Assembly (NCBI RefSeq): GCF_014652935.1
Contig: NZ_BMZT01000003.1
Location: 124,001 to 188,000 of the forward strand
Reading direction: 5' to 3'
Length of the DNA: 64,000 bases
Source: Luteimonas padinae
Lineage (GTDB): Bacteria > Pseudomonadota > Gammaproteobacteria > Xanthomonadales > Xanthomonadaceae
Part shown: positions 2,526 to 18,558 of the stretch, in pieces
Layout: the number at the start of each line of letters is the position of its first letter
Numbering within the stretch: position 1 is the stretch's first letter
Notes under the pieces: model-generated
Told to the model about the DNA's origin: nothing
Databases searched by the model: none
Seen by the model: the letters and a program-made list of their open reading frames with translations, nothing else
Made by a program: the position numbers and the translations under genes

Positions 2526-2535
2526 GATGGCGTCC

Positions 2536-5051: not shown

Positions 5052-5106
5052 GGGAACTCCAGAGGCAAAAGTTGACGTGGGAGCCCGTCAGGACGGGCAA
5101 AGCACG

Positions 5107-5463
5107 TCAGCTCCGCGGAGGCCTCATGGGTCCTTCGTATAGCCCGAATGCGCGAGTGGAGTCCTGTAGAACAGGCTGCACGGCATGCGTGGTGTCGTAG
5201 CCCACGGTCGCGCTGAAAGCAAGGTTGGCCGATGCATGATGACAGTGATTGTGGGCACACACGCCATGCGAGCCGTCCGGGACGCCGCCCTTTCCGGCGT
5301 CGTCGCGCGACGATGACGCCGCGTAATCGTCCGCTGCGACCGCCGCGTGATCCGCGTCCGACTCGAACGAGCACGCGAACGCATCGGCGACAGGCACGAT
5401 CACCAGCACTGCGACAAGCAGCGCGGCAATGGTGCTTCTCAGTCGGGCAAGGGCACGATGCAT
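5107..5463 (-). CDS. CzcI-like small periplasmic His/Cys protein (copy 1)
   Basis: 118 aa protein with a signal peptide (hydrophobic core ALLVAVLVIVPVADAFAC) and a short metal-ligand cluster CAHNHCHH at residues 69-76. The C-terminus ends in MRPPRS. It is the first gene of the czc operon, where Cupriavidus has czcI, a small periplasmic protein implicated in regulation of the efflux genes; the role here is inferred from position and composition, not from clear homology. A paralogue with the same signal-peptide spacing, the same CxHxHCHH motif and the same MRPPR tail lies at 12108-12422. The ATG sits only about 7 bases after a plausible -10 box, so the transcript may be nearly leaderless. Confidence 0.7.
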   Translation of the reverse strand: MHRALARLRSTIAALLVAVLVIVPVADAFACSFESDADHAAVAADDYAASSSRDDAGKGGVPDGSHGVCAHNHCHHASANLAFSATVGYDTTHAVQPVLQDSTRAFGLYEGPMRPPRS

Positions 5464-5470
5464 CGGGTCA

Positions 5471-5500
5471 AATATATCAGTCGCTTGCGCCCGGATACAA
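5471..5500 (-). promoter_or_regulatory. Putative promoter of the czc operon
   Basis: On the minus strand TTGTAT (5500-5495) and TATATT (5476-5471) are separated by 18 bases, directly ahead of the CzcI-like start at 5463. The surrounding sequence (5460-5526) recurs in degenerate form at 7246-7310. A regulator-binding site is likely in an efflux promoter but no known operator is recognised. Confidence 0.4.
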
Positions 5501-5725
5501 TAACAGGGCCGGTCTGGGAATCTTGGCGGGCGGCAGGCTTGGGATACTGTTCAGAGAGCGGCGTTCGTGAAAACGCTTCTCGCCACGACGCGCCGACCGC
5601 GCGTCTGGTACCGGGCGGCCCGGGTTCGGGCTCGTCCATCGGCAAAACTCTACCAGTGTGTTGGCGTCATTTTTGTGTCGCCCGGAACACTGGGTTAGAG
5701 TCGCCAGGCCACAGGAGATTCCCCC

Positions 5726-6304
5726 ATGGCATACAACCTGCGCGAAGGCGTAGCCCGCTACGACAATGTCGCGGTCGCGCTCCACTGGCTGATCGTGGTG
5801 GTGCTCATCGCCCAGTTCGGCACCGGCTGGATCTTCAGCGGCATGGAACGCGGCGATGCCCGGACCGCCTGGTTCGAGTGGCATCGCACACTTGGCTTTC
5901 TGGTGCTGCTGCTGACCGTGGTGCGCCTGGGCTGGCGGCTGACGCATCCCCCGCCGCCGTTCCCGCCGGACTTCCCCGGCTGGCAGCGCATCCTGTCTCG
6001 CGCCGTGCATTGGCTGTTCTACGCGCTGCTGATTGCCTTGCCGCTGGCCGGGTGGGTGTACGTCTCCACCGGCAGCACCGCGGCCGAGACGGGCATGACC
6101 ACGCTGGTGGGCGGAACGCCGTGGCCGATCATCCCCGGCCTGCCCCGTTCGCTGCACCGCCCGGCGGCTGAAATGCATGTGGTGCTGGTCTGGATTGCGG
6201 TGGCGCTGATCGCGCTGCACGTGGCCGCGGCGCTCAAGCACCGGTTCGTGGACCGGTCGCCGGTCGCCAATCGCATGCCACCGTTCCGGGTACGCGTCCA
6301 CTGA
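5726..6304 (+). CDS. Cytochrome b561 family protein
   Basis: 192 aa four-helix inner-membrane dihaem cytochrome of the bacterial b561 (YodB/CybB-like) type, expected to exchange electrons with quinone or a periplasmic partner. Candidate haem-ligand histidines are H20 (VALHWLIVV), H53 (FEWHRTLG), H95 (RAVHWLFY), H151 and H165. A GGAG Shine-Dalgarno sequence precedes the ATG. It is a single-gene unit divergent from the czc operon. The 262-base gap upstream contains a CCAGTGT ... ACACTGG inverted repeat (5653-5693) of unknown meaning. The physiological partner is unknown. Confidence 0.88.
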   Translation: MAYNLREGVARYDNVAVALHWLIVVVLIAQFGTGWIFSGMERGDARTAWFEWHRTLGFLVLLLTVVRLGWRLTHPPPPFPPDFPGWQRILSRAVHWLFYALLIALPLAGWVYVSTGSTAAETGMTTLVGGTPWPIIPGLPRSLHRPAAEMHVVLVWIAVALIALHVAAALKHRFVDRSPVANRMPPFRVRVH

Positions 6305-6396
6305 GGAGGCTCCCACCTGCTTGCGGGCGAGCGAGGGAACGTCCGTCGCCCGGTCCAAGTGCCGGGCATCGAACTGGTGCGGGCTGGCCGAGCAAT

Positions 6397-7241
6397 CTAG
6401 TCCCGCCCCACATGTTCGTGCCCTGCCGGGCCTCCGGGGATTGCCGGAATCCGACCTTGGCGAACTTTCCTGACGCGCCGGTTCATCGAGTGACGCACGA
6501 GATGCCGATAGAGTAACCCCCGCATCCAGCCGAGATTTTGCTTATGCCGGGCGTAGAAGTCGTCCGGGCTGTCGAATACCCCGAGATCGGCATTGATGCC
6601 CGTGCGTTGGATGTACGTGTCCTGTCCCACCCAATCAATGGGTGGCGAGGACAGGCAATCGGTTCCGGCGCCGTAGCCGCAGAGTTCGTTGGCGGTTCCG
6701 GCAAACTTTGCCTGCAGGGATCGAGGAAGGGTTGATCCAGTATGAAACCCTCAAGATTGATCCAGCGCCCGTCGTGCCAGACTTCCACCCAACTGTGGAG
6801 GATGTCGTCGGGGGCGAGGCCGTAGACCAGTTCGGGAACCACACCGCGCTGGAGTTCCTTGTGGATGGTGAAGCCGTGCAGGCGGCACGCAATGCCGAGC
6901 GCACGCAGAAGCGCCATCAACAATGTTCCCTTGGTGTTGCACTGACCGTAACCGTCCTTAAGTACCTCGGACGCCGCAATCTCGTCATCCCGGTTGTAAC
7001 CGAACGCAATTTCGTCGCGAACGAAGGTGTAGGCCTTCCCGATCTGATCGAATGGCTCCAATGCGCCCCATCCTCGTGCGGCCACCAGGTCGTGAATCCC
7101 AGGAGAGCCGAAGTCAAGCAGGCGTGTCTGCGGCAAATATCGCTTTTCCACGTATTCAGGCACTCTCAATCCGGAAGGGACGTCTGGCCCCATGTTCCGA
7201 TGGCAGTGCGCGTACGGAACAGGCTTTGGAGCAAAGCTCAT
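6397..7241 (-). pseudogene. Transglutaminase-like protein, broken by a frameshift
   Basis: The N-terminal part (7241 to about 6720) matches transglutaminase-like cysteine peptidase-fold proteins: FVRDEIAFGYN, then DGYGQCNTKGTLLMALLRA carrying the core Cys, CRLHGFTIHK and LHSWVEVWHDG carrying the His. Near 6717-6720 the reading frame shifts. The homologous continuation (LQAKFAGTANELCGYG, then DWVGQDTYIQRTG and DDFYARHKQN) lies in another frame and ends at 6397. Loss of one base from an original GATCGCCTGCAG-like sequence would explain it. The unshifted frame gives a 252-253 aa product with a nonsense tail that still holds the catalytic region. It may be a recent mutation or a sequencing error. 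The function of the intact family is unknown. Confidence 0.75.
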
Positions 7242-7245
7242 CAAG

Positions 7246-7310
7246 GCATCGGATCAACGTACTCACAGCGCCCGCCCGGATGCAATAACAGTGTGCTCCG
7301 AGCATCTTGG
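7246..7310. repeat. Degenerate second copy of the czcI promoter region
   Basis: The segment 7246-7291 aligns with 5460-5506, sharing GCATCGG-TCAA, CGCCCGGAT and CAATAACAG in the same order with nearly equal spacing. ATCTTGG recurs a further 12-13 bases on in both. In this copy the position of the czcI ATG is followed by CCT TGA, so no CzcI-like protein is encoded. It now lies directly ahead of the transglutaminase-like gene and may serve as its promoter (TTGCAT, 18 bases, TACGTT on the minus strand). Confidence 0.6.
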
Positions 7311-7349
7311 GCATAAAGCGGATCCAATCTTCTCTTCGGGAGTCAACGG

Positions 7350-9125
7350 TCATCTCTCCTGCCGGCGTACGAAACCCATGCGCGAAGCCTGCGGCATGGA
7401 GACGCCGGCACAGGCCGAGAACACGTCCAGAGCGGCGTCGTAGGCAGAAGATCGAACTTGCATGAGCCCCAGCACGGAATGGAACAGGTTGTCGTGGCTA
7501 AGCGGCCTGCCTGCCTGTCGCTCGAAGCACCGCATGTCGATGCCAGCACTGTCTCGCATTCCCGGCGAAAGCCACGCCACCATCGGCACCTTGATCTGGG
7601 TTTGCGGCGCGATTGCGTAAGGAAATCCGTGCAGGTAGAGGTTTCCTTCGCCAAGCGATTCGCCATGGTCGGAGAGGTAGATCATGGCGGTATCGTGCGA
7701 CCGATCCTGCGCGAGCATGCGGATGGTCCTGGCCAGGAAGTCATCGGTTTCCAGAATGGCGTTATCATACGCGTTGACGATTTCTTCCTGGCTGCATCTC
7801 CCAAGATCCGAGCTCCTGCAGTCCGGGATGAAGCGACGCAGCGACGGTGGATACCGCTTGAAATAGCTCGGGCCGTGGTTTCCGAGCTGATGAAGCACCA
7901 CCACGGCGTCGCCCGGATTGTCGTCGATGGCGTCATGCAATCCTTGCAACATCACTGCGTCGCGGCACGCCTGCTCGTCGCAGAGCGGGTCGATACGCGG
8001 CTCACGATAGGACTCGAACGCCAGCCCGGCACATACGCCCTTGCATCCGGTCTGGTTGTCGCGCCAGAGCGTCCTGACGCCTGCACGTTCCAAGACATGC
8101 AACAGCGATTCGGATCGCCTGATAAGTTCCTGATCGTATTTCCGCCGTCCGGCAACCGAGAACATGCACGGCACTGAGACCTCCGTGTTCGATCCACAAG
8201 CCGTGACATCCGTGAAGTTGATGACGTCCAGTGATGACAATTGGGGCGTCGTCTGCCGACGGTAGCCGTTCAGTCCCCAGTTCTGGGCGCGAACCGTTTC
8301 CCCGACGACGATCACCAGCAGGTGGGGTTTGGTCGACGATTCATGGCCGACCAGTCGTGCATCCTCGCCAACGATACGGCGGGGAGCATCCGCAGTACGG
8401 GCGTCCTCGCCCAGCACCTTGACGGTCGACACGAGATAGTTTCCCGGCGTGACCAGGTAGCGCAGGGACTTGTGGTTCCGCATCAGCGACGAGAGATCGT
8501 CGAAGCACGCCGCCAGTGCCACTCCGGTCAAGGCGGTCACGGCCAGCAGGAACGCCAAGCGGCGCAGCAGGCTGCGTTTCCATCCGTACGTCCTGATCCT
8601 CGTCCACCAGAGCAGAGCAGCCGGCAGGACACCCATGGCCAGCACCGACGACGCCAGTCCCGGCGTCAACAGTTCGGAGGCCTCCGCCGTATCGGTGCGC
8701 AGTACGTTCCGGATCATGCTCGGGTCGTAATGGACGGCATAACGATCCGCGAAGTAGGCAGCCGCCGCTGTCGCCATCAGAAGCAGCGTGAGCAACGGCT
8801 TGGCCGTCCAGCGGTTCAGGACGATCCCGAGCAGGATCGCGTGCAGGCCCGCAATCGCAAGGCCCATGCTGGCGAGCAGGCGCCAACTGCCCGGCTGGTC
8901 CAGGATGCCCGCGTCCCTGACGCCAGACCAGAATGCCCCGTTCGCGGTCGCGACGAAGAACAGGCTCGCGATGGCGATGAGGCCTTCCACGCTGACGGAC
9001 GGCCTGAGTCCGGCAAGCCGTCGATCAGAGCGAGAACCCAACAGCGTCCGCATTGCCGCCGAAAGTTCGAGGGTGGTTGATTGGGCAACTCTCTTTTGCG
9101 TGCTTCGCGGCGGCCGACCGATCAC
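7350..9125 (-). CDS. eptA: EptA/MCR-family lipid A phosphoethanolamine transferase
   Basis: 591 aa inner-membrane enzyme expected to transfer phosphoethanolamine from phosphatidylethanolamine to lipid A. The N-terminal half has several membrane helices (about 45-65, 80-105, 108-125, 155-175, 188-208). The periplasmic sulfatase-fold domain keeps the family's catalytic set: E276 in VVGETVRAQN, nucleophile T314 in CGSNTEVSVPCMFS, H417 in LGNHGPSYF, D486-H487 in YLSDHGESLGE and H499 in YLHGFPYA. Cys pairs match EptA/MCR disulfides. The GTG start overlaps the LAB_N stop (GTGA), so it is the last gene of a four-gene coupled operon. Known members lower polymyxin binding; activity here is inferred. 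Confidence 0.88.
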   Translation of the reverse strand: MIGRPPRSTQKRVAQSTTLELSAAMRTLLGSRSDRRLAGLRPSVSVEGLIAIASLFFVATANGAFWSGVRDAGILDQPGSWRLLASMGLAIAGLHAILLGIVLNRWTAKPLLTLLLMATAAAAYFADRYAVHYDPSMIRNVLRTDTAEASELLTPGLASSVLAMGVLPAALLWWTRIRTYGWKRSLLRRLAFLLAVTALTGVALAACFDDLSSLMRNHKSLRYLVTPGNYLVSTVKVLGEDARTADAPRRIVGEDARLVGHESSTKPHLLVIVVGETVRAQNWGLNGYRRQTTPQLSSLDVINFTDVTACGSNTEVSVPCMFSVAGRRKYDQELIRRSESLLHVLERAGVRTLWRDNQTGCKGVCAGLAFESYREPRIDPLCDEQACRDAVMLQGLHDAIDDNPGDAVVVLHQLGNHGPSYFKRYPPSLRRFIPDCRSSDLGRCSQEEIVNAYDNAILETDDFLARTIRMLAQDRSHDTAMIYLSDHGESLGEGNLYLHGFPYAIAPQTQIKVPMVAWLSPGMRDSAGIDMRCFERQAGRPLSHDNLFHSVLGLMQVRSSAYDAALDVFSACAGVSMPQASRMGFVRRQER

Positions 9126-9460
9126 GATGGATCACCGTGAGCCGGGCCGGCACCGTGCTCGCTCCGCGGGCGAAGATCCAGGTAGAGGCTGTATGCCGCA
9201 GTGAAGGCTGGCAGCAGGTTCTGCAGTACGCCGACCACGTCCTGCTTGTGCGAGAACAGGAAGTACGAGAGCGCCATGAGGCTCCCCGTCAGGCTCATGT
9301 ACCAGAAAAGGCGGGGAATGACCGGCCGGCCGGCGCGCCGGCTGGCGAGGAACTGGACGAGCCAGCGGGCGCCAAACATCAGCGCGCCGATCATCCCGAT
9401 GAGTTTCCACGGCGTCAGCACGATTCCCGTCCAGGCGAGCCATGCGATGGGATCGTTCAT
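9122..9460 (-). CDS. LAB_N (lipid A biosynthesis N-terminal domain) membrane protein
   Basis: 112 aa protein of about three membrane helices, beginning MNDPIAWLAWTGIVLTPWKL and continuing GALMFGARWLVQFLASRRAG and LFWYMSLTGSLMALSYFL. This is the LAB_N domain found as small proteins beside lipid-modifying glycosyltransferases and as an N-terminal extension of some LpxB proteins. An AGGAGA ribosome site sets the start at 9460. It overlaps the GT2 stop by 4 bases and the EptA-type start by 4 bases. The role is inferred from context: membrane support for glycolipid transfer or flipping. Confidence 0.8.
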   Translation of the reverse strand: MNDPIAWLAWTGIVLTPWKLIGMIGALMFGARWLVQFLASRRAGRPVIPRLFWYMSLTGSLMALSYFLFSHKQDVVGVLQNLLPAFTAAYSLYLDLRPRSEHGAGPAHGDPS

Positions 9461-10251
9461 GGCCTGGTCTCCTGGATGGATCGGCTGCGCGCACGCACGT
9501 GGCGTGCGGTGAGCCATGACACGCCAAGCAGGTCACGTATGCCCACGAGTGCTCGTCCCAAGTTGGTGTACTTGGATCTTCCCGATCCCCGCGGGCGGTG
9601 ATTGACCGGAACACTGACCGTTCGCCAGCCCGCCCGTTGCATGAGCGCAGGCAGGTAGCGATGCATGTGATTGAATGCAGGCAGCGACAGGAAGGCATCT
9701 CGTTCGAAGAGCTTGATCCCGCAGCCCGTGTCCGGCGTCCCGTCGTGGAGGAAGAAGCGCCGGATGCGATTGGCCAGCCGGGATGCGATTCGCTTGCCCG
9801 ATCCATCGTTGCGCATGACGCGCCAGCCGGCGATCAGCTTCACGTCGGGCGGTGATTCTTCCAGCCGGGCAATCAAGCTTGGAATGTCCGCGGGATCGTT
9901 CTGTCCGTCGCCGTCCAGCGTCGCAATCCACGGGCTGTACGCGTTCTGTACGCCCGTTAGCAGCGCAACGCTCTGCCCTCGGCACACGTCATGCTGGAAC
10001 GGCCGCAGTTCGGGGATGCCACTCTTCAGCGTCCACAGCACCTGCCCGGTGCCGTCGCTCGAACCATCATCCACGCAGACGATCTCGAACTCGATCCGCC
10101 CGCGCAGGGCGTCGCAGACTTCCTGCAGGAGGGTTGCGATGTTGCCGGCTTCGTTGTGTGCCGGGATCACGACCGAAAGCGAATCCGGAACCGCCGATGA
10201 GGCTGAGCCGACTCGATAGCCATCTGTATGCGGGAACGCAGCGTGTTTCAT
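9457..10251 (-). CDS. GT2 glycosyltransferase (polyprenyl-phosphate sugar synthase-like)
   Basis: 264 aa cytoplasmic GT-A enzyme with SVVIPAHNEAGNI, CVDDGSSDGTGQ and the DGDGQNDP metal-binding region, typical of dolichyl/undecaprenyl-phosphate sugar synthases (DPM1/ArnC-like). No strong C-terminal membrane helices are seen, as in DPM1-type members. It would charge a lipid carrier with a sugar used by the GT39 enzyme encoded immediately upstream. ATGA overlaps join it to both neighbours. The sugar is not predictable from sequence. Confidence 0.85.
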   Translation of the reverse strand: MKHAAFPHTDGYRVGSASSAVPDSLSVVIPAHNEAGNIATLLQEVCDALRGRIEFEIVCVDDGSSDGTGQVLWTLKSGIPELRPFQHDVCRGQSVALLTGVQNAYSPWIATLDGDGQNDPADIPSLIARLEESPPDVKLIAGWRVMRNDGSGKRIASRLANRIRRFFLHDGTPDTGCGIKLFERDAFLSLPAFNHMHRYLPALMQRAGWRTVSVPVNHRPRGSGRSKYTNLGRALVGIRDLLGVSWLTARHVRARSRSIQETRP

Positions 10252-11948
10252 CGCTGGCTCTCCTGGGTTGAGGTGTCCCGGGCACGCGCGGGCAACAGCC
10301 ACCATGTCCTCCGGTTGGCGATACCCACCGCAAACGGTTCCCCGTCGCGAAATCCTTGCGGAATCGCCGAGCCCACGATGAGCAGCCACCTGTCCTCTGG
10401 GGCCTGCGCCTGCCACGCCAACGCGCTTTCGAGTTGCTCTTTCTCCGGCCGGGTGAAACCGAATTCGGTGGTTGGCGATTGGCTCATCAACAACTGCTGC
10501 TCGCGCCAGCCCACGAGGCCGAGTTGTGCGTCTGGGCCGATCTGTCGCGCCACGGTTTCCATCAGCCCGCGCGACGAGTTCGCATCGTTGAGGACGACGG
10601 CGCCGCCGATGCCGAAGGCGATCCACATTCCCCCTAGACCGGCCATCGTGCCGGCCACGACCCGCCCGCTCATGGCGGTGATGGCGCCCAATGCCGCGGG
10701 CAGCGCCATGGCGAGCACCAGCCAAGCCATGCCTTCCGAGCTTGTGGACATGCCGCGCGTCAGCAGGAAACGTTTCTCGAAACCCGGATCGGTGAACAGC
10801 ATCGCCAGGCCCGCCATGAACAGCGCAAAGGCCAGCGCCATGATGAATCCAAGGAGCAGCAGGCGTGGCCCACTGCGTCTGAGCAGACCGGGAAGCAGCG
10901 GTGCGACGGCCAGGCAGGCCAGCGGCAAGGCGGGCAGGATGTACATGTCCCGCTTGCCCGATGGAATCGAGAAGAACAGCACGATCAGCAGCCAGCCGCC
11001 CAGCAGGAGCAGAAAGCGTGGATCGCCACGAGAGATGCGCCGCTTCCAAGGGGCGAGTGCCCATGGCATCGCCAGCATCAACGGCAACCACGCGCTCGCC
11101 ATCACGCCCGCGAAGTACCAAGGCGGCTTGATGTGCGTCCAGGACTCCGCGTAGCGCTCGACGGTTTGCCGGAACAGGATGTCTTGGGCGTAGGCCAGAT
11201 GCTCGGCGGTAGGCACGAACCGGACCGCGGCCAGCATTGGTCCCAACCAGAGCGAGACGGCCACCAGCAGCGCGATCGGCCCCAGCCAGAACTTCCGGTC
11301 GTGCCACCAGGCATTCGAGACGCCGCGTTGCCACCAGGTTGCGGCGATCGCCGGGATCAGCACGAACAGGGCGATGATGCCGACGCCCTTGGTGATGACA
11401 CCCAGTCCCACGGCGAACCACCCCAGCGTCCACATGTGCCAGTCAGGCCCCCGGAGGACGTGCCGCAGCAAGCCGTAATGCGCGAGCGTGACCCAAGCGA
11501 TCAGCAGGGGGTCGATCTGCGCTCGCTTCATCTGCAGGGTGAACTGCAAGGTGAGGAGCAACGCCCACCCGGCGCACAGCCCAATCTGCCGGTTCCACAA
11601 ACGGCGACCGAGGTCGTACGTCAGCACGATCGTCAGCAAGCCGGCCAGCAGCGACGGCAGCAGGAAGGAGATCCGCAGGTTGCCCGTGGCCCAGTACAGC
11701 GCGGCCTGGATCCACATGAACAGCGGCGGCTTGTCCGAATAGAGCTCAGTTCCCCGATGGGGGAACAGCCAGTCGCCGCTTTCGACCATCTGCCTGGCCA
11801 CGAGCGCGAAGCGCGGTTCGTCGGCGGGCCAGGGATCCCGCAGTCCCAATCCGGCGCCGAGCACCACGAGGGCGACGAGCGACAGGACGCCAATGCCCGG
11901 TGGACGAAGCTGATTGAAGTTCAAGTGAGGAAACGTGGCGGTCGTCAT
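10248..11948 (-). CDS. GT39-family glycosyltransferase (ArnT-like)
   Basis: 566 aa polytopic inner-membrane transferase with the GT39/PMT hallmark acidic pair near the N-terminus (DPWPADEPRFALVARQM) and about twelve hydrophobic segments. Such enzymes move a sugar from undecaprenyl phosphate onto lipid A (ArnT) or another envelope acceptor. The chosen start at 11948 has a GGGAG site 7-8 bases upstream; an in-frame start at 11993 would add 15 residues covering a perfect hairpin. It is the first gene of the operon GT39-GT2-LAB_N-EptA, which points to lipid A or outer-membrane glycolipid modification. No arnA/arnB-type sugar synthesis genes lie beside it. Confidence 0.85.
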   Translation of the reverse strand: MTTATFPHLNFNQLRPPGIGVLSLVALVVLGAGLGLRDPWPADEPRFALVARQMVESGDWLFPHRGTELYSDKPPLFMWIQAALYWATGNLRISFLLPSLLAGLLTIVLTYDLGRRLWNRQIGLCAGWALLLTLQFTLQMKRAQIDPLLIAWVTLAHYGLLRHVLRGPDWHMWTLGWFAVGLGVITKGVGIIALFVLIPAIAATWWQRGVSNAWWHDRKFWLGPIALLVAVSLWLGPMLAAVRFVPTAEHLAYAQDILFRQTVERYAESWTHIKPPWYFAGVMASAWLPLMLAMPWALAPWKRRISRGDPRFLLLLGGWLLIVLFFSIPSGKRDMYILPALPLACLAVAPLLPGLLRRSGPRLLLLGFIMALAFALFMAGLAMLFTDPGFEKRFLLTRGMSTSSEGMAWLVLAMALPAALGAITAMSGRVVAGTMAGLGGMWIAFGIGGAVVLNDANSSRGLMETVARQIGPDAQLGLVGWREQQLLMSQSPTTEFGFTRPEKEQLESALAWQAQAPEDRWLLIVGSAIPQGFRDGEPFAVGIANRRTWWLLPARARDTSTQESQR

Positions 11949-11964
11949 CGCGCGCTCCCGCTCG

Positions 11965-11983
11965 TGTCGGCCTTTCGCCGACA
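11965..11983. other. Hairpin in the leader of the GT39 operon
   Basis: TGTCGGC and GCCGACA form a perfect 7-bp stem with a 5-base loop, 17 bases ahead of the preferred GT39 start. There is no T run, so it is not a standard terminator. It may affect leader stability or translation. Confidence 0.3.
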
Positions 11984-12080
11984 GGCTGGACAAGCAACGA
12001 CGCAGCCACCGGCCGCCATAGGCGACCAGTCGATACGGTCATGCATGGGATACCCGTGAGTCTGTCTGGATGGCAATCAC

Positions 12081-12097
12081 TGCGGCGAATCGCCGCA
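12081..12097. terminator. Possible terminator hairpin after CzcI-like copy 2
   Basis: TGCGGCG-AAT-CGCCGCA is a perfect 7-bp stem with a 3-base loop, 10 bases past the stop of the CzcI-like gene at 12108. No U-tract follows on the minus strand, so termination is only suggested by position and stability. Confidence 0.3.
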
Positions 12098-12107
12098 AAC
12101 GTTGCGA

Positions 12108-12422
12108 TCAGACTCGGGGAGGACGCATCAACCGTTCGGGTAGCAAAGACTTCGGCGCCGGCTTCTCAGGCGCGAGGACGAGAACCGCATGAACAACCGC
12201 CGAATACGAGGCGTCGCACGGCAACAACTGAGTCCCCGTGTGGTGGCAATGGCCGTGCCCACAAACGGCATGATCTGGCGTGCCGGGATCCGAGTCGGCG
12301 TCGTGCTGCACCGTCTCCGGCTCGACCGTGCAGGCCGCAGCATCGATCGCAGGCACGATCACCAGCATTGCCAGAAGCAATGCCATGATCAACCTTCGAC
12401 TCCGCGCAAAACACTCAGACAT
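12108..12422 (-). CDS. CzcI-like small periplasmic His/Cys protein (copy 2)
   Basis: 104 aa from the ATG at 12422, chosen because its signal peptide (MALLLAMLVIVPAIDAAAC) then aligns with copy 1 without gaps, each having Cys at residue 31. The metal cluster is CGHGHCHH, and the C-terminus ends MRPPRV, as in copy 1 (MRPPRS). The middle region is diverged. Unlike copy 1 it has no efflux genes downstream: the next gene on its strand is the GT39 operon, about 160 bases away. A GTG at 12434 would add four residues. Probably periplasmic and metal-binding, function unproven. Confidence 0.6.
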   Translation of the reverse strand: MSECFARSRRLIMALLLAMLVIVPAIDAAACTVEPETVQHDADSDPGTPDHAVCGHGHCHHTGTQLLPCDASYSAVVHAVLVLAPEKPAPKSLLPERLMRPPRV

Positions 12423-13123
12423 GCGACAAACCACGAACGTTCGGTTTCATTCTTGCCTGCCCGGACGGCTGACGCGCAATCTCAGGCAACGCCCAACATG
12501 GGGTGAGATCGCACCCGTGGTGGGTAGAGTACTGTGCGCGGACTCCCTTCCCGCGTCAAGACACATCAACGTCATTCCGATCCCGGCGAAGAAAGTTCTG
12601 CCGACACCCAAGAAGTATTGTTAACTTCTCGTTGCGCATTGTTCGGATTGCCTCTGCGGCTACCCGCTCGCAGGTTAGCCCGGCCACCGGCGATGCAGGA
12701 TATCGATGCGATAGGCATGCCGGTGCGTTCCCTCTCGGGTGTGCTCCAAGACGTGCGGATGATCGGCAGGCAGTTCAAATGTAATCGTGCTCGACGATTT
12801 CGGCATCGTCTTTCGGCTACATTGCCAGACGACCACGAGGCCCAGTCCGGCAAGCAGCTCAAGTGTGATGACATCCCGCACGGTCGCAATCGCGAGGCGT
12901 TTGGAAACCCCCCCCGCCACAGCGTCACGCACCCGAGCGAGTAGTGGTGGAGGACAATGGGCGCACGATGGTCGGCGCGGCCGTTCTCGTGATGCAAGCA
13001 CGTCGTCGCAGGGAGGTAGCCGTCAGGCGTAGCCACCCGGAAGGCGGGCATCGATGGCAGGCAGGATCCCCATGTCAGCCGATGAGGTGGCGCAGCATGC
13101 CGGCGCCGGCGGCGCCGAAATAG
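12423..13123. other. 700-base stretch with no confident gene
   Basis: Open frames on the minus strand (for example 13001-12675, ending in the His-rich HPHVLEHTREGTHRHAYRID) do not resemble a family I recognise, and the apparent coding switches between frames, as in decayed DNA. At 13075-13125, directly after the srap-like gene, a short open frame ends FGAAGAGMLRHLIG-stop with host-like GC-rich codons. It may be the tail of a lost gene. A GGGTG-N6-CACCC inverted repeat lies near 12499-12514. Confidence 0.4.
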
Positions 13124-13531
13124 TCACTTCTTGGCAGATGGGTGGTCAATGACGTTCCCGCCGGACATTCGTGCCTCAAGCGAGGAGATGTTCATCGTCA
13201 ACAGTTCGTTGACCGAGGCCAGCTTGGCAATCTGTTGCCGCAACTGAGCATTCTCGGATCGTAGTTTTTGATTCTTCTCCCGCTCTGCCTTGAGTTCCGA
13301 TTGCTTCGCATCCCGCATGGCTCGACTGGATCGTCCCTGCTTCTCGCGGATGACCTCAGCAATCTCGGGATGGTAGTTGTGAATGAGCGAGGTACTCACG
13401 CCCGCTTCCCTTGCTACCGAAGAGATCGTCAGCTTCCTCGCTTTGGTTTGCGAGCGCCCTCGCTCTATGCGGGTGATGGCAAGGCGAAGTTGCTTTTGCC
13501 TGTCTTCAGATGCCAAGCGGCTGTTCTTCAT
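13124..13531 (-). CDS. SRAP/TnpC-like small HTH and coiled-coil recombination protein
   Basis: 135 aa, basic. Residues 34-52 (LTISSVAREAGVSTSLIHN) form a helix-turn-helix of the kind seen in Tn554 TnpC-like proteins. Residues about 72-120 are a coiled coil (KAEREKNQKLRSENAQLRQQ). It is the last gene of the recombinase module, overlapping the stop of the IntB-like gene by 4 bases. Matching position and size with srap of SE elements suggests an accessory role in choosing or stabilising the recombination complex. Codon use is less GC-rich than the chromosomal genes to the right. Confidence 0.7.
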   Translation of the reverse strand: MKNSRLASEDRQKQLRLAITRIERGRSQTKARKLTISSVAREAGVSTSLIHNYHPEIAEVIREKQGRSSRAMRDAKQSELKAEREKNQKLRSENAQLRQQIAKLASVNELLTMNISSLEARMSGGNVIDHPSAKK

Positions 13532-15414
13532 GCGGCACCGTTGTTGTTCAGCTCATGGCCAAGATCGCGAAGCACGATGGCGCATCTGTCCAGATCGCGG
13601 CGCACGCGAAGCAATCCGCCTTCACCGATGTCATCGCAATCGAGGAGGGTTTCTAGGTGCTCATACAACCCTTGGTAGAAGGGTGCATGCTGCGCTTCGA
13701 TGACACTATGTTGGCAGTCGGTGCAACGGATCCGATCCAGCCCGCCGTTCCCTACACAGTCGATTCCATGGTGTGCCGAACACCAGGCATGTCCATTGCT
13801 GCGAATCTCGATGTTCTCCGAGATTGTTTGGATCATCTCGGCCCTGCTTTTGAACAACGTGATGGGGTTGGCTCCTCGATACTCGACGAACCCGCGGCCG
13901 GTTCTTCCAGAAAGTGGGACGTCTGGAGAAAGCCAGAGGTCGATTTTTGCCTCACGTAGACTGTCAACCTCCTCGCCAATTTCCTCGAACAATGTCTCCT
14001 CCAGCGCATCGTTCAACGCATAGAGCAAGGTCATGTCGATAGTCCAGTGCTTGAAGTGTTCTTTCAGGTAGCGTAGGTCGCCATATTGGCTGCGAGCAGC
14101 GTAGTGAGCAAAGGTGCGACGGAACTGGTGAGTGGCCACGTTCCAGGCGATACCGTTCTTCTTCGCAAACGCCAAAAGGCTAACGCTGAGTGATCTCAAC
14201 GAGATGGTGCGTACGGCATTTCCGTTTCTGGAACCTCTTCCGAGGAATACCGCCTTGAGATGCCTCTCCGCCTCGGCAATTTCGGTGTCGGTGGGGTCGA
14301 TAGCCCGGCGCTGGGCGATTTCATCGGCGATAATGGTCTGGTATGGGATGGCCCAGCGATCCATGACTTGTAGTGCCCGCACGGCCGCTTCTGGAATCAT
14401 CCATTCCGTATCGCCGGCATCTGTCTTGATCGATTGGCTCCGCATCCACCAGTATGTCTCTCCATCGCTGCCCTCCGTTCGATAGTACGAGCCGCACTGG
14501 ATCGCCGCGATTTCATGATTTCTGCAACCGGAAAGGCTGGCGACAATGATGTAGCAGGCTGTTCTGAGATCCGTGACTGTTTCCTGGAATTTCGCTAACC
14601 CGTGAGCCCATCCTCGGCTTACCAGGTGCCTCCTCATCGCGCACGTATTCGCTTCCTTGGAATTTCCGCCGCCTGCTGATTCCACGGTCGCAAGCTCATC
14701 GCGCAGGTCAAGAATGTATTGGGCTTTCTGTACCAAGGCATGCGAGGCTTGGAACAGCGCGCAGAAGATATGGTCAGGAATGAGGGGCGTGACACCATGA
14801 TGCCGGCTTCCCCTGGATCCGGTCAGCGTTCCTGAGAGGATCTTCGCAGAGGAATCCGGCCAGGGATGGGTAGGCATCGAATCGTCCGTATGCTTGCTCA
14901 GTTCATGCAGCATCTCGATCGCGCGGAATCGCTTCTCAAGCGTCGTGCGAGAGAAGGATTTACCTCTCGCTGATGTGCGCCCTTTCATTTCCTGGACATA
15001 AGTGGCGCATACAAATGGACTGACGTCTTGAAGTCGTTCGATGCCGAGCGATAGGATGTAGCGGAAGAACGATATCGAATCCCAGAAAAGTAATCTCACC
15101 GTGGACACGCTGGGAAGTCGGCCGCGATTCATGCTTCCGCGGCGCATAAACCGGTACATGATGGCTTTCATCGCCGCACGGAAAGGCTCTGGTACGGTCG
15201 TGAAATTCAGGGTTCGGTATCCCTTGTTCTGATTAGTGACGCCACTGTGGAGCAACCATGAGTCGTCCCCATAACGGCTAACCGTCTGCCACGATCCATT
15301 GACATTGATGGCAGAAACAATCAATGAGTCCCTGTCCAGAGACGACAATTCGAGAACACTGGATGGTTGCAGTGAATAACCGCGATGGCCTGCCGGGGAT
15401 GCTTGTGAATTCAT
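13528..15414 (-). CDS. IntB-like tyrosine recombinase (Tn554 TnpB-like)
   Basis: 628 aa site-specific recombinase. The C-terminal catalytic domain keeps R298 (SGCRNHEIAAI), K330 (SIKTDAGD), H429-x-x-R432 (THQFRRTFAHYAAR), H456 in FKHW and Y465 in LLYALN, so it looks active. After the catalytic domain there is a Cys cluster (C545, C553, C564, C567) that could bind zinc. Size and architecture are close to TnpB of Tn554 (about 630 aa). It overlaps both the Tfp-like gene and the srap-like gene by 4 bases, so the products are probably made in fixed ratio. Confidence 0.82.
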   Translation of the reverse strand: MNSQASPAGHRGYSLQPSSVLELSSLDRDSLIVSAINVNGSWQTVSRYGDDSWLLHSGVTNQNKGYRTLNFTTVPEPFRAAMKAIMYRFMRRGSMNRGRLPSVSTVRLLFWDSISFFRYILSLGIERLQDVSPFVCATYVQEMKGRTSARGKSFSRTTLEKRFRAIEMLHELSKHTDDSMPTHPWPDSSAKILSGTLTGSRGSRHHGVTPLIPDHIFCALFQASHALVQKAQYILDLRDELATVESAGGGNSKEANTCAMRRHLVSRGWAHGLAKFQETVTDLRTACYIIVASLSGCRNHEIAAIQCGSYYRTEGSDGETYWWMRSQSIKTDAGDTEWMIPEAAVRALQVMDRWAIPYQTIIADEIAQRRAIDPTDTEIAEAERHLKAVFLGRGSRNGNAVRTISLRSLSVSLLAFAKKNGIAWNVATHQFRRTFAHYAARSQYGDLRYLKEHFKHWTIDMTLLYALNDALEETLFEEIGEEVDSLREAKIDLWLSPDVPLSGRTGRGFVEYRGANPITLFKSRAEMIQTISENIEIRSNGHAWCSAHHGIDCVGNGGLDRIRCTDCQHSVIEAQHAPFYQGLYEHLETLLDCDDIGEGGLLRVRRDLDRCAIVLRDLGHELNNNGAA

Positions 15415-17060
15415 TGCAGGTACTCAAGGGAATCCGGCCTTGACCAGAAGGGATGTGGGTTGGTACGCGCGCGATCCCGGGCCGAACGGATCACATCTGG
15501 ATCCAGCTTCCTCTCGGCAATTCCACGATCCACGACGTCCCGTTCGATCAGCCTGACCAGGTGCGCGTAGTGACGCTTCCATCTCTTCTTGGTGACCCTG
15601 TCCCGTTCCCGCACCACCAGCCAGAAAAAGCTGAATAGCCGATGGAGGTCATCCGGATCGCCCGTCACGACGAAGTTCCTGCACCGCAAGCAGGCAAGGA
15701 AGTTCATGCACTGTGTCCCGTTCTTTGGTGCCAACTGGCCGTTCTTCGGGTCACTGCAGCGCGAAGTAGGCGTCTTTTGCGTCACAAGCGTCCCTGTCTC
15801 AAGTTCATTGGCAAGAACTTGCCCCATGAAACTCCAGTTCCTCTTCGCGTCTTCGCTGGGAATCAAATAGTCGCGATCCGTGGTGCGCGCGGTATTTCCC
15901 AGAGCCCTGGCCGTGGCTGCGATGTCGCCATCCAGAATCTCGAAAATGCGATTGGCGAACGTTTTCCGTAGGCGGGAGATGTTGACGCGCAACGGATCTC
16001 CGTTCGCATCTACAAGATCGGCATCCTTGACGAGTCTTTGTATGACGGTCATGAGCGTCATATCGCTGATATGTGTAACGCGACCTGCGGCGTCGCGATA
16101 GAGCCATAGCCGGCCCTTCAAATGGGCTGGGGCATCCTTCTGCAGGGGTTCGCAAAGGATCTTGGCGCGTTCAATCAGCCGAACCACGTCTGGAAGAACG
16201 CTGGCGGACATGGCAATGTCGCTCACGTCGCGTAATGCGACCTTATGGGTCGTGGCGCCCCGCCTCTTGAAGCACACGAGAATCCGCATGTTCTTCTTCG
16301 GGTGCGGCCTGAGGCAGTCGACGGGGAGCTCAAGCAATGGTGTGGTGTTCCTCCCGGTTCTGAGCGCGATGGCCAGAATGGCATACGTCAGGAGATCGGC
16401 CGTTGGTTCTGCACCGTCATGAAAAATCGGCATCACTGCGGTCTTCAATGCAGCAGCGAATGTCTTTCTTTCTCGCTGATCCAGTGGCTTCTCGCCTTGT
16501 TGCTTGCGCCCAATGTTCGGAAACGGATTTGGAGGAAATGTACCTTCTTCTCCGTTCAGGATGACAATCACCTTACTTTCGGCAAGGCCAACGAGTATCG
16601 CCTTCAGGCAGGTGTATTTGTGCCGCTGAGTCGTTGTTTTTATGGTCGACTGGCGTAAATGGAAAAGATAGCCATCAACGAGCGGGCGACCGATGTCAGG
16701 CAGAACCAGGTCACGGCCGAGCGCGCCGGCAGTCAGTACGCAGTAATCCAGGAACAGCTTCGCCCCGTTGCCGCAGTATCCTGCGATGGTTGCAATTGAT
16801 AGATCCCCGTCCCCGGTCAGCAGGAACCGTTCGACCTGCTTTTGGAATGCGTATGTGATCTGATCGACACCCACTCCATACCAAGGAGAAAAATCAAAAC
16901 TTCTGCGGTCGGTTGCGTTGCCTTCTGCGGGGAACCGGACGACAGTTTGTGCTTGCGAGATGAGTTCCTTCGAAATCTCAATTCCACCGCTTTCGGTCTT
17001 GCGAATGACAGCCGTCGGGACGGTCAGGTCTGCTTTCGGGAAGTTCTTCTTCCTGCCCAT
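15411..17060 (-). CDS. Tfp-like tyrosine-recombinase-fold protein with degenerate catalytic site
   Basis: 549 aa. The region around residues 225-400 has the recombinase fold but lacks key residues. The first Arg region reads ALRTGRNTTPLLEL (R234 or R237). The HxxR box is replaced by SRLR (S362-R365) in VNISRLRKTFANR, and the second His position is Asn in ALGNTARTTDRDYL, although Y398 remains. A Cys cluster (C435, C451, C457, C460) follows. This fits tfp of SE elements, a recombinase-fold protein between intA and intB. It is probably structural or DNA-binding rather than catalytic. The gene starts 3 bases after the intA stop. Confidence 0.75.
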   Translation of the reverse strand: MGRKKNFPKADLTVPTAVIRKTESGGIEISKELISQAQTVVRFPAEGNATDRRSFDFSPWYGVGVDQITYAFQKQVERFLLTGDGDLSIATIAGYCGNGAKLFLDYCVLTAGALGRDLVLPDIGRPLVDGYLFHLRQSTIKTTTQRHKYTCLKAILVGLAESKVIVILNGEEGTFPPNPFPNIGRKQQGEKPLDQRERKTFAAALKTAVMPIFHDGAEPTADLLTYAILAIALRTGRNTTPLLELPVDCLRPHPKKNMRILVCFKRRGATTHKVALRDVSDIAMSASVLPDVVRLIERAKILCEPLQKDAPAHLKGRLWLYRDAAGRVTHISDMTLMTVIQRLVKDADLVDANGDPLRVNISRLRKTFANRIFEILDGDIAATARALGNTARTTDRDYLIPSEDAKRNWSFMGQVLANELETGTLVTQKTPTSRCSDPKNGQLAPKNGTQCMNFLACLRCRNFVVTGDPDDLHRLFSFFWLVVRERDRVTKKRWKRHYAHLVRLIERDVVDRGIAERKLDPDVIRSARDRARTNPHPFWSRPDSLEYLQ

Positions 17061-17063
17061 TCG

Positions 17064-18209
17064 CTAAGCTCGGCTCCATTCCGTGACTTCATCGTCGTAC
17101 TGGAGCACGGCGGCGTCTGCCAGTTCGTCGATCAAATGCGCATAGACCATGGTCGTCTGTATGGATTCGTGGCCTAGCTGTCGTTGCAAGAACACGATTG
17201 GCTCAATGGTCTTGTCACCTTGCTGCATGGAATTCAGGGTGTGAGTTGCATAGGTGTGCCTCAACATATGCGGCCACACCTTGATGCCGACACTGGCGCC
17301 AAGGTTGCGGACGATCCGCTCAATTCCCTTTCCGCCGGCTGCAAAAGGGTTTCCATCCTGGTTCAAGAACAGTGCATTCGATTGAGAGGCACCTTGTCTC
17401 GCCCGCTCTCCGCGGACCTGAACGAAGTAGTGCCACAGGTCTTTCATGAAGTTCCGGCTGATGTAGATGGTTCTCTCCTTGTTGCCTTTGGTTCGCATGC
17501 CGTGTCCATCTTCCGGATCCAGGTGAACTCTGATGTTCTTGGGCGCATGGCCAAGGCGTGCGGGAGCGATCAGGTAGGCGTAGGGGAATGTGGCGATCTC
17601 TTCGCGACGAAGTCCCGTCTGTAGTCCCATGCGCACAATCATTTTGTGGTGGGGATTGTGCGCTGTGGCGAGCAGTTGCTGGATCTGGTCTGTCGACAGA
17701 AACTGTGGAAGCGTCTTCCTCATCTTTGGCATAACGCTAGTCGATGCGACCTCGTCGCCGGAACTGTCGATGTGCTCGAGGAGCGTGTCTGCTTTCGGTG
17801 CTAGAACAATCTCCCTTGAAAACGGAAGTGTCTCGATCCAGTTCTGCTTGTGGGCGTATTTGTAGAACTCACAGATCAGATACAACCTTTGCCTGACCGT
17901 GTTCAGGCTCAGCCCTATCGTGTCCTTGCAGTAGTCGCGATATGCAGCAACTGGTGTGTGATCCTCTGCCTTCGGGGTGTCGTTCCAGACTAGGTCGTGC
18001 GCTTCGAGAAAGCCGAAGTAGTCGTACAGCGCTTGCCCATAGACCTTCCAACTCTTGGCGGATCCAACCCTTCCCCGTTGCAGGAGGTGATATCGGAGGA
18101 ACGTGTTGGCTGGCGAGACGCCGACCATTTCTGAATCAAGCAGGATCGGGAAGTCGCGATACGAAACGCCGTGCAGCTTGAAGTCGTCCGTGGACCAAAT
18201 CAGTTCCAT
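17064..18209 (-). CDS. IntA-like tyrosine recombinase (Tn554 TnpA-like)
   Basis: 381 aa phage-integrase-family recombinase with SAM-like N-terminal and catalytic C-terminal domains. All six catalytic positions are present: R201 (TGLRREEIA), K241 (RTKGNKERT), H314-x-x-R317 (PHMLRHTYATH), H347 (QLGHESIQTT) and Y356 (MVYAHL). It is the first gene of the recombinase module. Its start is about 160 bases from the junction with the truncated DUF4442 gene, so it is the end-proximal recombinase, as intA is in SEs. Probably active. Confidence 0.88.
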   Translation of the reverse strand: MELIWSTDDFKLHGVSYRDFPILLDSEMVGVSPANTFLRYHLLQRGRVGSAKSWKVYGQALYDYFGFLEAHDLVWNDTPKAEDHTPVAAYRDYCKDTIGLSLNTVRQRLYLICEFYKYAHKQNWIETLPFSREIVLAPKADTLLEHIDSSGDEVASTSVMPKMRKTLPQFLSTDQIQQLLATAHNPHHKMIVRMGLQTGLRREEIATFPYAYLIAPARLGHAPKNIRVHLDPEDGHGMRTKGNKERTIYISRNFMKDLWHYFVQVRGERARQGASQSNALFLNQDGNPFAAGGKGIERIVRNLGASVGIKVWPHMLRHTYATHTLNSMQQGDKTIEPIVFLQRQLGHESIQTTMVYAHLIDELADAAVLQYDDEVTEWSRA

Positions 18210-18366
18210 TCTGCGGCCCCCTGGATCTGTTCCTGCAGGGGAGAGACAGTTCGATCGCTAGAGTGGCCTTGATGCTTGCAGCAGCCTTGCTTGAAGCACG
18301 TCAATGTGCGCTCTCCGCTGGGTGAGCCAGCAGGCTAGCACAAGGTAACGATTCTGAGGCCCCCTA

Positions 18367-18555
18367 TCAGAACGGATCGGTCATGGCGAACAGGCTGCCG
18401 CCGAAGTGCGTGCCGACGTAGTTGCGGTTGTACCAGCGCTGGCGCAGCTCGACGCGGGCGTGGCGGTAGTCCTCGGCCAGCGCGGTGATGCGGATTCCGG
18501 AGAACAGGAACGGCGGCCACGCGTTCATGCCGTGGCGCAGGGTCGACGCGCGCAC
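18367..18555 (-). pseudogene. Truncated DUF4442 (thioesterase-fold) gene, 5' part
   Basis: 62 codons from MRASTLRHGMNAWPPFLFSG to GTHFGGSLFAMTDPF, followed at once by TGA TAG. This matches the N-terminal part of DUF4442 hot-dog-fold proteins, which normally continue for roughly 80-100 more residues after MTDPF. It starts 3 bases after the thioredoxin stop, so it was the second gene of that operon. The break coincides with the intA-side end of the mobile element, so insertion is the likely cause. The missing 3' part is not present elsewhere in the window. Confidence 0.72.
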
Positions 18556-18558
18556 CGG

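Follow-up and report, generated by a model that had tools for sequence, protein, structure and literature searches.

A probably intact SE/GInt-type integrative element inserted in a DUF4442 gene of Luteimonas padinae

The closest described systems to the locus considered here are two groups of integrative elements, SEs and GInts. SE-6945 (pSEA2), SE-Pda04Ya311 (pAQU1) and SE-PaeBT2436 (pBT2436) are SEs of PMC10214605 and PMC9345347. According to the accessible portions of these papers, SEs carry genes for IntA, Tfp, IntB and Srap in this order at one end, split their target, possess a 6-bp core and imperfect terminal inverted repeats, and transport efflux genes; others transport lipid A genes. 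In gene order, split target, core and cargo they resemble the window, as we call the whole 64,000-nt stretch of L. padinae DNA that was analysed; the terminal inverted repeat seen there is weak. It should be noted that an SE carrying mcr-9 is already in print in the same portions of PMC10214605, as is a xanthomonad SE, SE-XcaCN17, and the first-pass annotation was thus mistaken in taking such an example to be new. The GInts of E. coli (PMC5385486) likewise have four genes in a row. Published GInt descriptions, in the excerpts available, present GinC as degenerate, with a position beside ginD that makes it the third protein, and model integration with 6-nt staggered cuts.

Analysis of the window confirmed a minus-strand operon of four tightly packed ORFs at 13124-18209, encoding 381, 549, 628 and 135 aa (Table 1). 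The junctions consist of a 3-base gap at the first and 4-base overlaps at the second and third. Positions, sizes and spacing were all as the first-pass annotation had read them, and its claims of complete catalytic sets in IntA and IntB and of an SE-type gene order with SE-type sizes were borne out too. Its description of the middle protein as lacking the HxxR box stands in part: Ser replaces the box II His, with Tyr and the Arg residues of boxes I and II in place. The start of intA is 158 bp from the element end, an SE-type placement of the operon at one end. The arrangement is not due to chance, because a complete operon with the same 1-2-3-4 order was present at 71 of the 80 loci retained from the scan of named genomes. 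The commonest spacing among these 71 was a 1-base overlap at the first junction (39 loci) and a 4-base overlap at the other two (50 loci for the second, 42 for the third).

Table 1. Features of the locus, in window coordinates.
Feature	Position	Strand	Basis or remark
Element portion inside window	1..18367	-	exact comparison of flanks with empty sites in three congeners
CzcA-like RND pump	3..2525	-	crosses window's left edge; match made on overlapping L042 reading
CzcB-like adaptor	2536..3795	-	family match
CzcC-like outer membrane efflux protein	3792..5051	-	family match
Cytochrome b561	5726..6304	+	family match
Transglutaminase-like protein	6483..7244	-	family match
EptA-type lipid A phosphoethanolamine transferase	7350..9125	-	above NF028537 cut-off
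Lipid A biosynthesis N-terminal domain protein	9122..9517	-	family match
Family 2 glycosyltransferase domain	9457..10254	-	below curated cut-offs; start is our reading
ArnT-like glycosyltransferase	10248..11993	-	match below curated cut-off
srap-like gene, 135 aa	13124..13531	-	Pfam DUF6262 match below cut-off; HTH matches weak
intB, 628-aa tyrosine recombinase	13528..15414	-	R-H-R-H-Y complete
tfp-like gene, 549 aa	15411..17060	-	Ser at the box II His position; Tyr and both Arg present
intA, 381-aa tyrosine recombinase	17064..18209	-	R-H-R-H-Y complete
Left terminal motif C (GGGGC...GTTAC)	18344..18367	-	imperfect inverted repeat of far end
attL 6-bp core GTTCTG (minus strand)	18368..18373	-	identical to attB core in G018, G044 and G050
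Split host DUF4442 gene, N-terminal part	18371..18558	-	C-terminal part at C3:117488-117730

The element measures 24,633 bp (contig C3:117735-142367) with the operon at one end, and its remaining 6,266 bp (C3:117735-124000) lie to the left of the window. The far end, on which the first-pass annotation had made its reading depend, was found there through the three empty sites. The interval that the annotation closed at 18369 does contain the operon; the terminus itself is at 18367, 2 bp short of that. A second GTTCTG copy is located at the far end (C3:117729-117734), and the same 6 bp, corresponding to the SE spacer, occur in attB. Both halves of the split attB are retained as the two parts of the DUF4442 gene, in agreement with SEs, while this gene is undivided in the three congeners, with whole open frames of 157 codons from stop to stop. 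Aligned with a single gap, motif C agrees with the far end in 15 of 20 columns, which is a weak repeat, as 48 of 2000 random internal pairs scored equally high. A pattern for the terminal motif, composed post hoc and of illustrative value, was found in 36 of 107 leaders (duplicates included) against a mean of 5.2 and a maximum of 11 in shuffled ones. Ends resembling the terminal motif of the window were also seen in relatives. Neither a tRNA nor an Rfam family above its gathering score was detected within the 64,000-nt window, and a search for ssb tails next to the loci retrieved found none. The cargo overall comprises Czc efflux, P-type ATPase, CDF, EptA and lipid A genes, with the EptA-type protein reaching the cut-off of none of the MCR-specific models listed.

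In the IntA tree, the window belongs to a clade (99/96), designated W, whose hosts include Betaproteobacteria. Clustering with the published SEs, as anticipated by the first-pass annotation, was not seen: SE-6945, SE-Pda04Ya311 and SE-PaeBT2436 form another clade (100/96), and E. coli GInts with an ssb site fall into a clade of their own outside W. The IntB tree, computed by a quick method with fewer rows, divided the groups in the same way. Residues were counted in 89 distinct W operons, the set of 109 rows having contained duplicates. Arg I, His and Arg II of IntA were present in 89/89 and its box III His and Tyr in 88/89 with one gap; all five catalytic residues of IntB were present in 88/89, again with one gap. 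In the Tfp, the box II His was found in 0/89, Arg II in 89/89, Tyr in 88/89 and Arg I in 63/89. SE-type Tfps have the Tyr in 17/17 and Arg II in 16/17. Thus, the SE description of IntA and IntB with RHRY and a Tfp without it applies to the window, with Arg II and Tyr retained in the Tfps of both W and SE type. Conserved residues and profiles point to a recombinase fold of the second protein; a sequence search of the PDB with the Tfp profile returned three matches with E of 0.26 or worse, no recombinase among them. A scan of genome contigs with the Tfp as sole query detected no relative.

Taken together, the window probably carries an integrative element that is intact, of the same kind as SEs and GInts, and a member of branch W, and W, as judged from sequence comparisons, is a broad sister branch of the SE and GInt families. 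The published SE and GInt descriptions, in their accessible parts, do not place this branch.

That the element qualifies as an SE as defined in the papers, W then corresponding to the large clade with Pseudomonas in their SE tree, is a possibility we take seriously without expecting it to hold. The marks of an SE insert are present in kind, namely a split attB, a weak inverted-repeat joint and a 6-bp spacer. Moreover, at an E cut-off of 0.05 with database size fixed at 5e7 a profile of 17 SE-type rows found 89/89 distinct W Tfps and 84/88 Sraps; however, 13 of these 17 rows are unvalidated loci sorted by best hits. A profile of the three published SEs found only 8/89 distinct W Tfps and 65/88 Sraps, the window's own Tfp (E 0.045) and Srap (E 0.0009) among those within the cut-off. 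Against this identification, W lies outside the clade of the three published SEs in both trees, and it is present in Betaproteobacteria, in which the available text of the SE paper reports that no homologs were found. Plasmid hosts differ as well: Pseudomonas is outside the ten commonest genera among 64 plasmid records matching the SE-6945 Tfp (E up to 0.01) but accounts for 87 of the 185 matching the window Tfp (E up to 0.001). Protein identity of the window to SE-6945 and SE-Pda04Ya311, the two SEs compared, is 21-29%.

It is somewhat unlikely that the window is instead a GInt and that W includes the GInts of P. stutzeri DSM 4166 and P. syringae that have been tested experimentally, which would imply two-strand excision and an occasional empty site. 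IntB matches with E below 1e-50 were found in at least 38 of 398 Pseudomonadaceae genomes (at most three candidates per genome were scored), to be compared with the published figure of GInts in 10.4% of Pseudomonas replicons; Betaproteobacteria are, according to the same excerpts, common to W and GInts, and the 6-nt staggered cuts of the GInt model speak in the same direction. A coordinate-based search for the DSM 4166 GInt in 56 genomes from the genus of locus L059 (Stutzerimonas by title) gave no match. The comparison was made with E. coli ssb-site elements (L212-L215), recognised by site and operon, with profiles built from three of them representing two lineages. These profiles found 0/109 Tfps and 0/108 Sraps of W (rows including duplicates), and W profiles found 0/3 of the second and fourth E. 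coli proteins in the reverse search; these elements also form a separate clade. Furthermore, the degenerate protein is the second in W and the third, GinC, in the available GInt descriptions, the third protein of W being, unlike published GinC, catalytically complete in 88/89 operons with one gap. This argument is weak, because E. coli GInts also look degenerate in the second protein: in the three that were read, it lacks the box II His and has Arg and Tyr, as in W.

A decayed, immobile relic of intact look is improbable. The element occurs in one of 299 related genomes, a search of the 298 others with the Tfp giving no match, and the terminal inverted repeat is weak; nevertheless, the four ORFs are open, catalytic residues are conserved, and the 6-bp core, like the ends, is exact. 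An element of the RIT or Tn554 type, which would share several tyrosine recombinases in a row and, for Tn554, a small TnpC likened in the literature to Srap and GinD (the window's small protein weakly matches DUF6262), is very improbable and was rejected on the excerpted descriptions of both, in which archetype RIT recombinases have 315-410 aa each, against 381, 549 and 628 aa here, and Tn554 has TnpA, TnpB and TnpC with no counterpart of the Tfp-like protein.

For the preferred reading, an intact element of branch W, we suggest that two full tyrosine recombinases, a crippled recombinase-like protein and a small HTH/coiled-coil-like helper would assemble on both ends, that strands would be exchanged within the 6-bp core, and that a circle would be formed and inserted at a short target word, here within the DUF4442 gene. 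By analogy with published SE and GInt work, all four proteins would be needed, circles would form and exchange would concern only the top strand. As a conjecture, the second protein, devoid of the box II His and retaining Arg II and Tyr, might take the place of the unexchanged strand and so render the reaction one-sided.

Best pairs between W and SE-type profiles were collinear (E values of 1e-38 for 1-1, 1.9e-19 for 2-2, 7.4e-38 for 3-3 and 2.6e-14 for 4-4). Profile pairings with GInts were best on the diagonal in 11 of 12 cases, several weakly, the SE Tfp being the off-diagonal case. These pairings suggest, weakly where GInts are concerned, that the three groups SE, GInt and W form a single collinear system. 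We tentatively extend this to a single ancient four-protein machine (IntA=GinA, Tfp=GinB, IntB=GinC, Srap=GinD), of which W would be the third branch, one that is widespread and extends to Betaproteobacteria. The second subunit of W would be a recombinase minus the box II His, with Arg II and the nucleophile Tyr, rather than a dead DNA-binding protein, and would be the source of one-sided strand exchange. If so, the gene-order distinction made in the literature set Tfp against GinC, two subunits that do not correspond, findings from each group could be combined, and a single residue of the second protein would allow the origin of strand bias to be tested. With both ends defined and empty sites known, the element adds a complete example to a recombination system of unsettled mechanism.

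Among the loci compared, L002 (P. aeruginosa NZ_CP095924) and L003 (Cupriavidus pRK1-1) were closest to the window, with 46-54% identity over all four proteins and different neighbouring genes. Two further W elements, whose ends were resolved against empty plasmids, share its clade and gene order: L006 (5,470 bp), inserted in the umuC gene of a pOXA-48-like plasmid, and L008 (9,278 bp), which carries a blaVMB-1 integron and is found on IncC plasmids; their proteins are 28-44% identical to those of the window, and targets and cargo differ. Excerpts of the SE papers state that attL retains the 6 bp of attB and attR has the donor 6 bp. The window element gives no view of this rule, because its attL and attR cores are identical. 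Comparison of two W relatives with empty sites agreed with it in 2/2 cases, attL being equal to the attB 6 bp and attR different (ACAACG/ATAACG and CTCATG/CAGATG), as read with C aligned to C' by eye, the raw common overlaps being 5 and 3 bp. Branch W is also relevant to resistance tracking, because of the genes found in it: the host plasmid of a bounded relative within the branch with a carbapenemase integron was typed as conjugative, and in another relative mercury resistance genes are located immediately behind the operon.

For the first-pass annotation, the lack of a detectable far end would have counted against an SE-like integrative element at this locus. Alignment of both flanks to the congeneric genomes G018, G044 and G050 located this end and delimited an insert of 24,633 bp (assembly size 3.1 Mb). 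Beside intA lies the end of a DUF4442 gene fragment, the remaining half of which is found before the opposite end; in the three congeners the gene is whole, as 157-codon open frames from stop to stop. The core GTTCTG is present on each side of the insert and in the empty target (attB) of all three congeners, attL and attR cores being identical. Along the element strand, the left terminus has the sequence ATAGGGGGCCTCAGAATCGTTACC, and the right terminus, in inward orientation, TTTTGGGGCGTTGGTAATAGTTAC. Their best local alignment, which contains one gap, agrees in 15 of 20 columns, a score that 48 of 2000 random internal pairs reached.

Coordinates of the window element, its target and the loci compared with it (contig, NZ_BMZT01000003.1)
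Feature	Reference	Coordinates	Strand or length
Window	contig	124001-188000	64,000 nt
Inserted element	contig	117735-142367	24,633 bp
Remaining half of DUF4442 gene	contig	117488-117730	
Operon, proteins 1-4	window	13124-18209	minus
Small ORF, first	window	5107-5463	
Small ORF, second	window	12108-12434	
Target word CCGTTCTG	window	18368-18375	
Relative in pOXA-48-like plasmid	L006	7173-12642	5,470 bp
Relative in IncC plasmid	L008	5294-14571	9,278 bp
E. coli ssb 3'-end query	L211	500-1200	
Same word in E. coli ssb target	L211	854-861	

The annotated four-gene operon was recovered as four minus-strand ORFs of the sizes claimed (IntA, 381 aa; Tfp-like, 549; IntB, 628; Srap-like, 135), separated by one 3-base gap and two 4-base overlaps. 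Its G+C content (55%) is below that of the cargo (67%) and of the host flanks (73-74%). Pfam searches assigned Phage_integrase to protein 1 (5e-20), a sub-threshold SAM-like trace alone to protein 2 and a weak Phage_integrase trace (0.015) to protein 3. In its own genome the operon DNA is single-copy, as is IntA, to which three further weak integrase matches were found. None of the 298 other relatives (of 299) matched the Tfp-like protein at E up to 1e-10. Plasmid records with a match numbered 185; the best matches, at 44-49% identity, came from Pseudomonas, Cupriavidus, Paraburkholderia and Rahnella.

An IntB profile run against named genomes detected 195 relatives, and the 80 best were retained. 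The complete operon in the order 1-2-3-4 was present in 71 of these, and the other nine, cut or broken under the ORF rule used, were excluded. Judged by record title, one of the 80 was a Lysobacteraceae MAG (L060), and 14 belonged to genera that we take to be Burkholderiales or Rhodocyclaceae. Within Pseudomonadaceae, IntB was matched in 67 of 398 genomes, with E below 1e-50 in at least 38 and scores dropping off beyond, at most three candidates being scored per genome. With further fetched loci, the clade holding the window element (W) comprised 109 rows and 89 distinct operons. The SE-type group (S, 17 rows) consisted of three published SEs, namely SE-6945 (L046), SE-Pda04Ya311 (L047) and SE-PaeBT2436 (L055, two protein ids of which agree with those published), the locus L009 from a Vibrio plasmid and a further 13 assigned by visual sorting of best hits; in five of these 13 (L162, L165, L167, L201 and L204), one or two proteins score nearest a W or X row. 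Group X (L010, L158, L200) was set aside, L159 and L160, resembling L158, were left out of comparisons, and so were L163, L168 and L209, with a gene missing or a different order. In L168 and L209, proteins 2 and 3 are adjacent and an IntA-like gene lies downstream rather than upstream, which may represent a different arrangement of the system. SE-type loci L161, L162, L163, L165 and L204 have a common upstream gene, read as an HrpB-type helicase, which suggests a shared target.

The window proteins are 46-54% identical to those of P. aeruginosa NZ_CP095924 and Cupriavidus pRK1-1 and 28-50% to those of L006-L008, whereas SE-6945 and SE-Pda04Ya311 gave same-position matches at 21-29%. Against pBT2436, window IntA matched the element adjoining the mer operon (3e-71) and, at E up to 0.01, not the IntA of SE-PaeBT2436. 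This megaplasmid (L052, L055) carries both a W-type operon beside the mer operon and an SE with tmexCD-toprJ.

As yardsticks for ginABCD elements (GInts), several of which are located at the end of ssb (PMC5385486), we queried the E. coli ssb 3' end: at least 80% was covered in 4926 of 5376 matching records and not in 450. Among five of the latter listed, four ended at query base 361, inside the last codon, and one started at 355. All four ending at 361 (L212-L215) have a four-gene GInt-type operon directly after ssb; L212 and L214 have identical accessions for each of their four proteins, leaving three GInts, two of them near-identical in the tree and hence effectively two lineages. Two of the four operons are followed by a gene annotated as Avs4 defence. 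The word CCGTTCTG is common to the targets of the window element and of an E. coli ssb GInt, the recombinases being distant.

The IntA tree comprised 66 rows (43 from W after thinning, 17 from S and 3 each from X and the GInts). W, S and the GInts each formed a single group in it, with support of 99/96, 100/96 and 100/98, respectively, and the window was the first branch inside the main W subclade; X was split, and many long branches were flagged, published SEs among them. For IntB, a quick tree of 52 rows, 29 of them from W, likewise gave W (0.91), S (0.90) and GInts (1.0) as single groups, with X beside W and poorly supported deep forks (0.4, 0.59). Profile comparison of W and S paired all four proteins best on the diagonal. 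With the 17-row S profile, all 89 distinct W Tfps were matched, as were 84 of the 88 Sraps, and none of the three E. coli GInts. A profile of the three published SEs matched only 8 of these 89 Tfps and 65 of the 88 Sraps, among them the window's Tfp at 0.045 and its Srap at 0.0009. Together, S-profile counts and trees argue that W is closer to SEs than these ssb-site GInts are, but beyond the clade of published SEs. Of the SE kinship first proposed, gene order and sizes are supported; clustering with the published SEs is not. No paper that names the W branch was noticed in the literature searched, supplements being outside its scope, but W may figure in the list of members that belongs to the SE paper.

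The catalytic sets of IntA and IntB are complete over the 89 distinct W operons, save one gapped row each. Of the 89 W Tfps, none has the box II His, all have Arg II, 88 have the Tyr and 63 have Arg I. Among SE-type Tfps, Tyr is retained in 17/17 and Arg II in 16/17. In each of the three GInts, the second protein is also without the His and retains Arg and Tyr, and the third retains H-x-x-R and a Tyr. Tfp and GinC are reported as lacking the motif or part of it (PMC10214605, PMC5385486). The length filter for ginC-ginD blocks in PMC10214605 implies that GinC is the gene adjoining ginD, i.e. the third. Against two-sequence GInt profiles, W proteins 1-4 paired best on the diagonal (2.9e-9, 1.1e-4, 0.02 and 0.0056, the last two weak), with GinB only slightly ahead of GinC for protein 2 (1.1e-4 and 5.2e-4). 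The diagonal agreed for 4/4 X and 3/4 S proteins; SE Tfp scored better with GinA (0.0027) than GinB (0.006), against a collinear reading. From these weak pairings with few GInts, GinC would be the counterpart of IntB, and the published Tfp-GinC comparison would then pair non-equivalent subunits.

In two W relatives the ends were set by empty plasmids. The pOXA-48-like plasmid gave ACAACG in attB and attL and ATAACG in attR, and the IncC plasmid CTCATG in attB and attL and CAGATG in attR; the inverted repeats were equalled by 0 and 1 of 2000 random pairs, respectively. These sole two relatives so compared agree with the published SE rule, by which the target's 6 bp are kept in attL and the donor's in attR (PMC10214605, PMC9345347). 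Several W element leaders have a GGGGCTTG...GTTAG-like end adjoining the target, and targets include a umuC-like gene among others, by our own reading of gene names. The element in umuC of the pOXA-48-like plasmid has little cargo room and occurred in 1 of 1031 matching records; that on IncC plasmids carries an integron with blaVMB-1, at least 80% of the query being covered in two records.

In the best-supported scheme, a four-protein complex would join both ends across the 6-bp core, forming a circle that would then be inserted at a short target. GInts are reported to need all four genes (PMC5385486), and one SE to need intA, intB and srap, its tfp having resisted deletion (PMC10214605). Circles and top-strand bias are adopted by analogy with published work, and the second protein might, as a conjecture, be a non-exchanging protomer.

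From the far end towards the operon, the cargo encodes a MAPEG protein, a universal stress protein, a DUF411 protein, a heavy-metal P-type ATPase, a CDF transporter (below family cut-off), CzcABC-type efflux, cytochrome b561, a transglutaminase-like protein, EptA, a lipid A N-terminal-domain protein, a family 2 glycosyltransferase and an ArnT-like protein. Two similar small ORFs with His/Cys-rich stretches adjoin the metal and lipid A genes and had no NCBIfam match. EptA exceeded the cut-off of the general model for lipid A phosphoethanolamine transferases and fell below that of each MCR-specific model listed.
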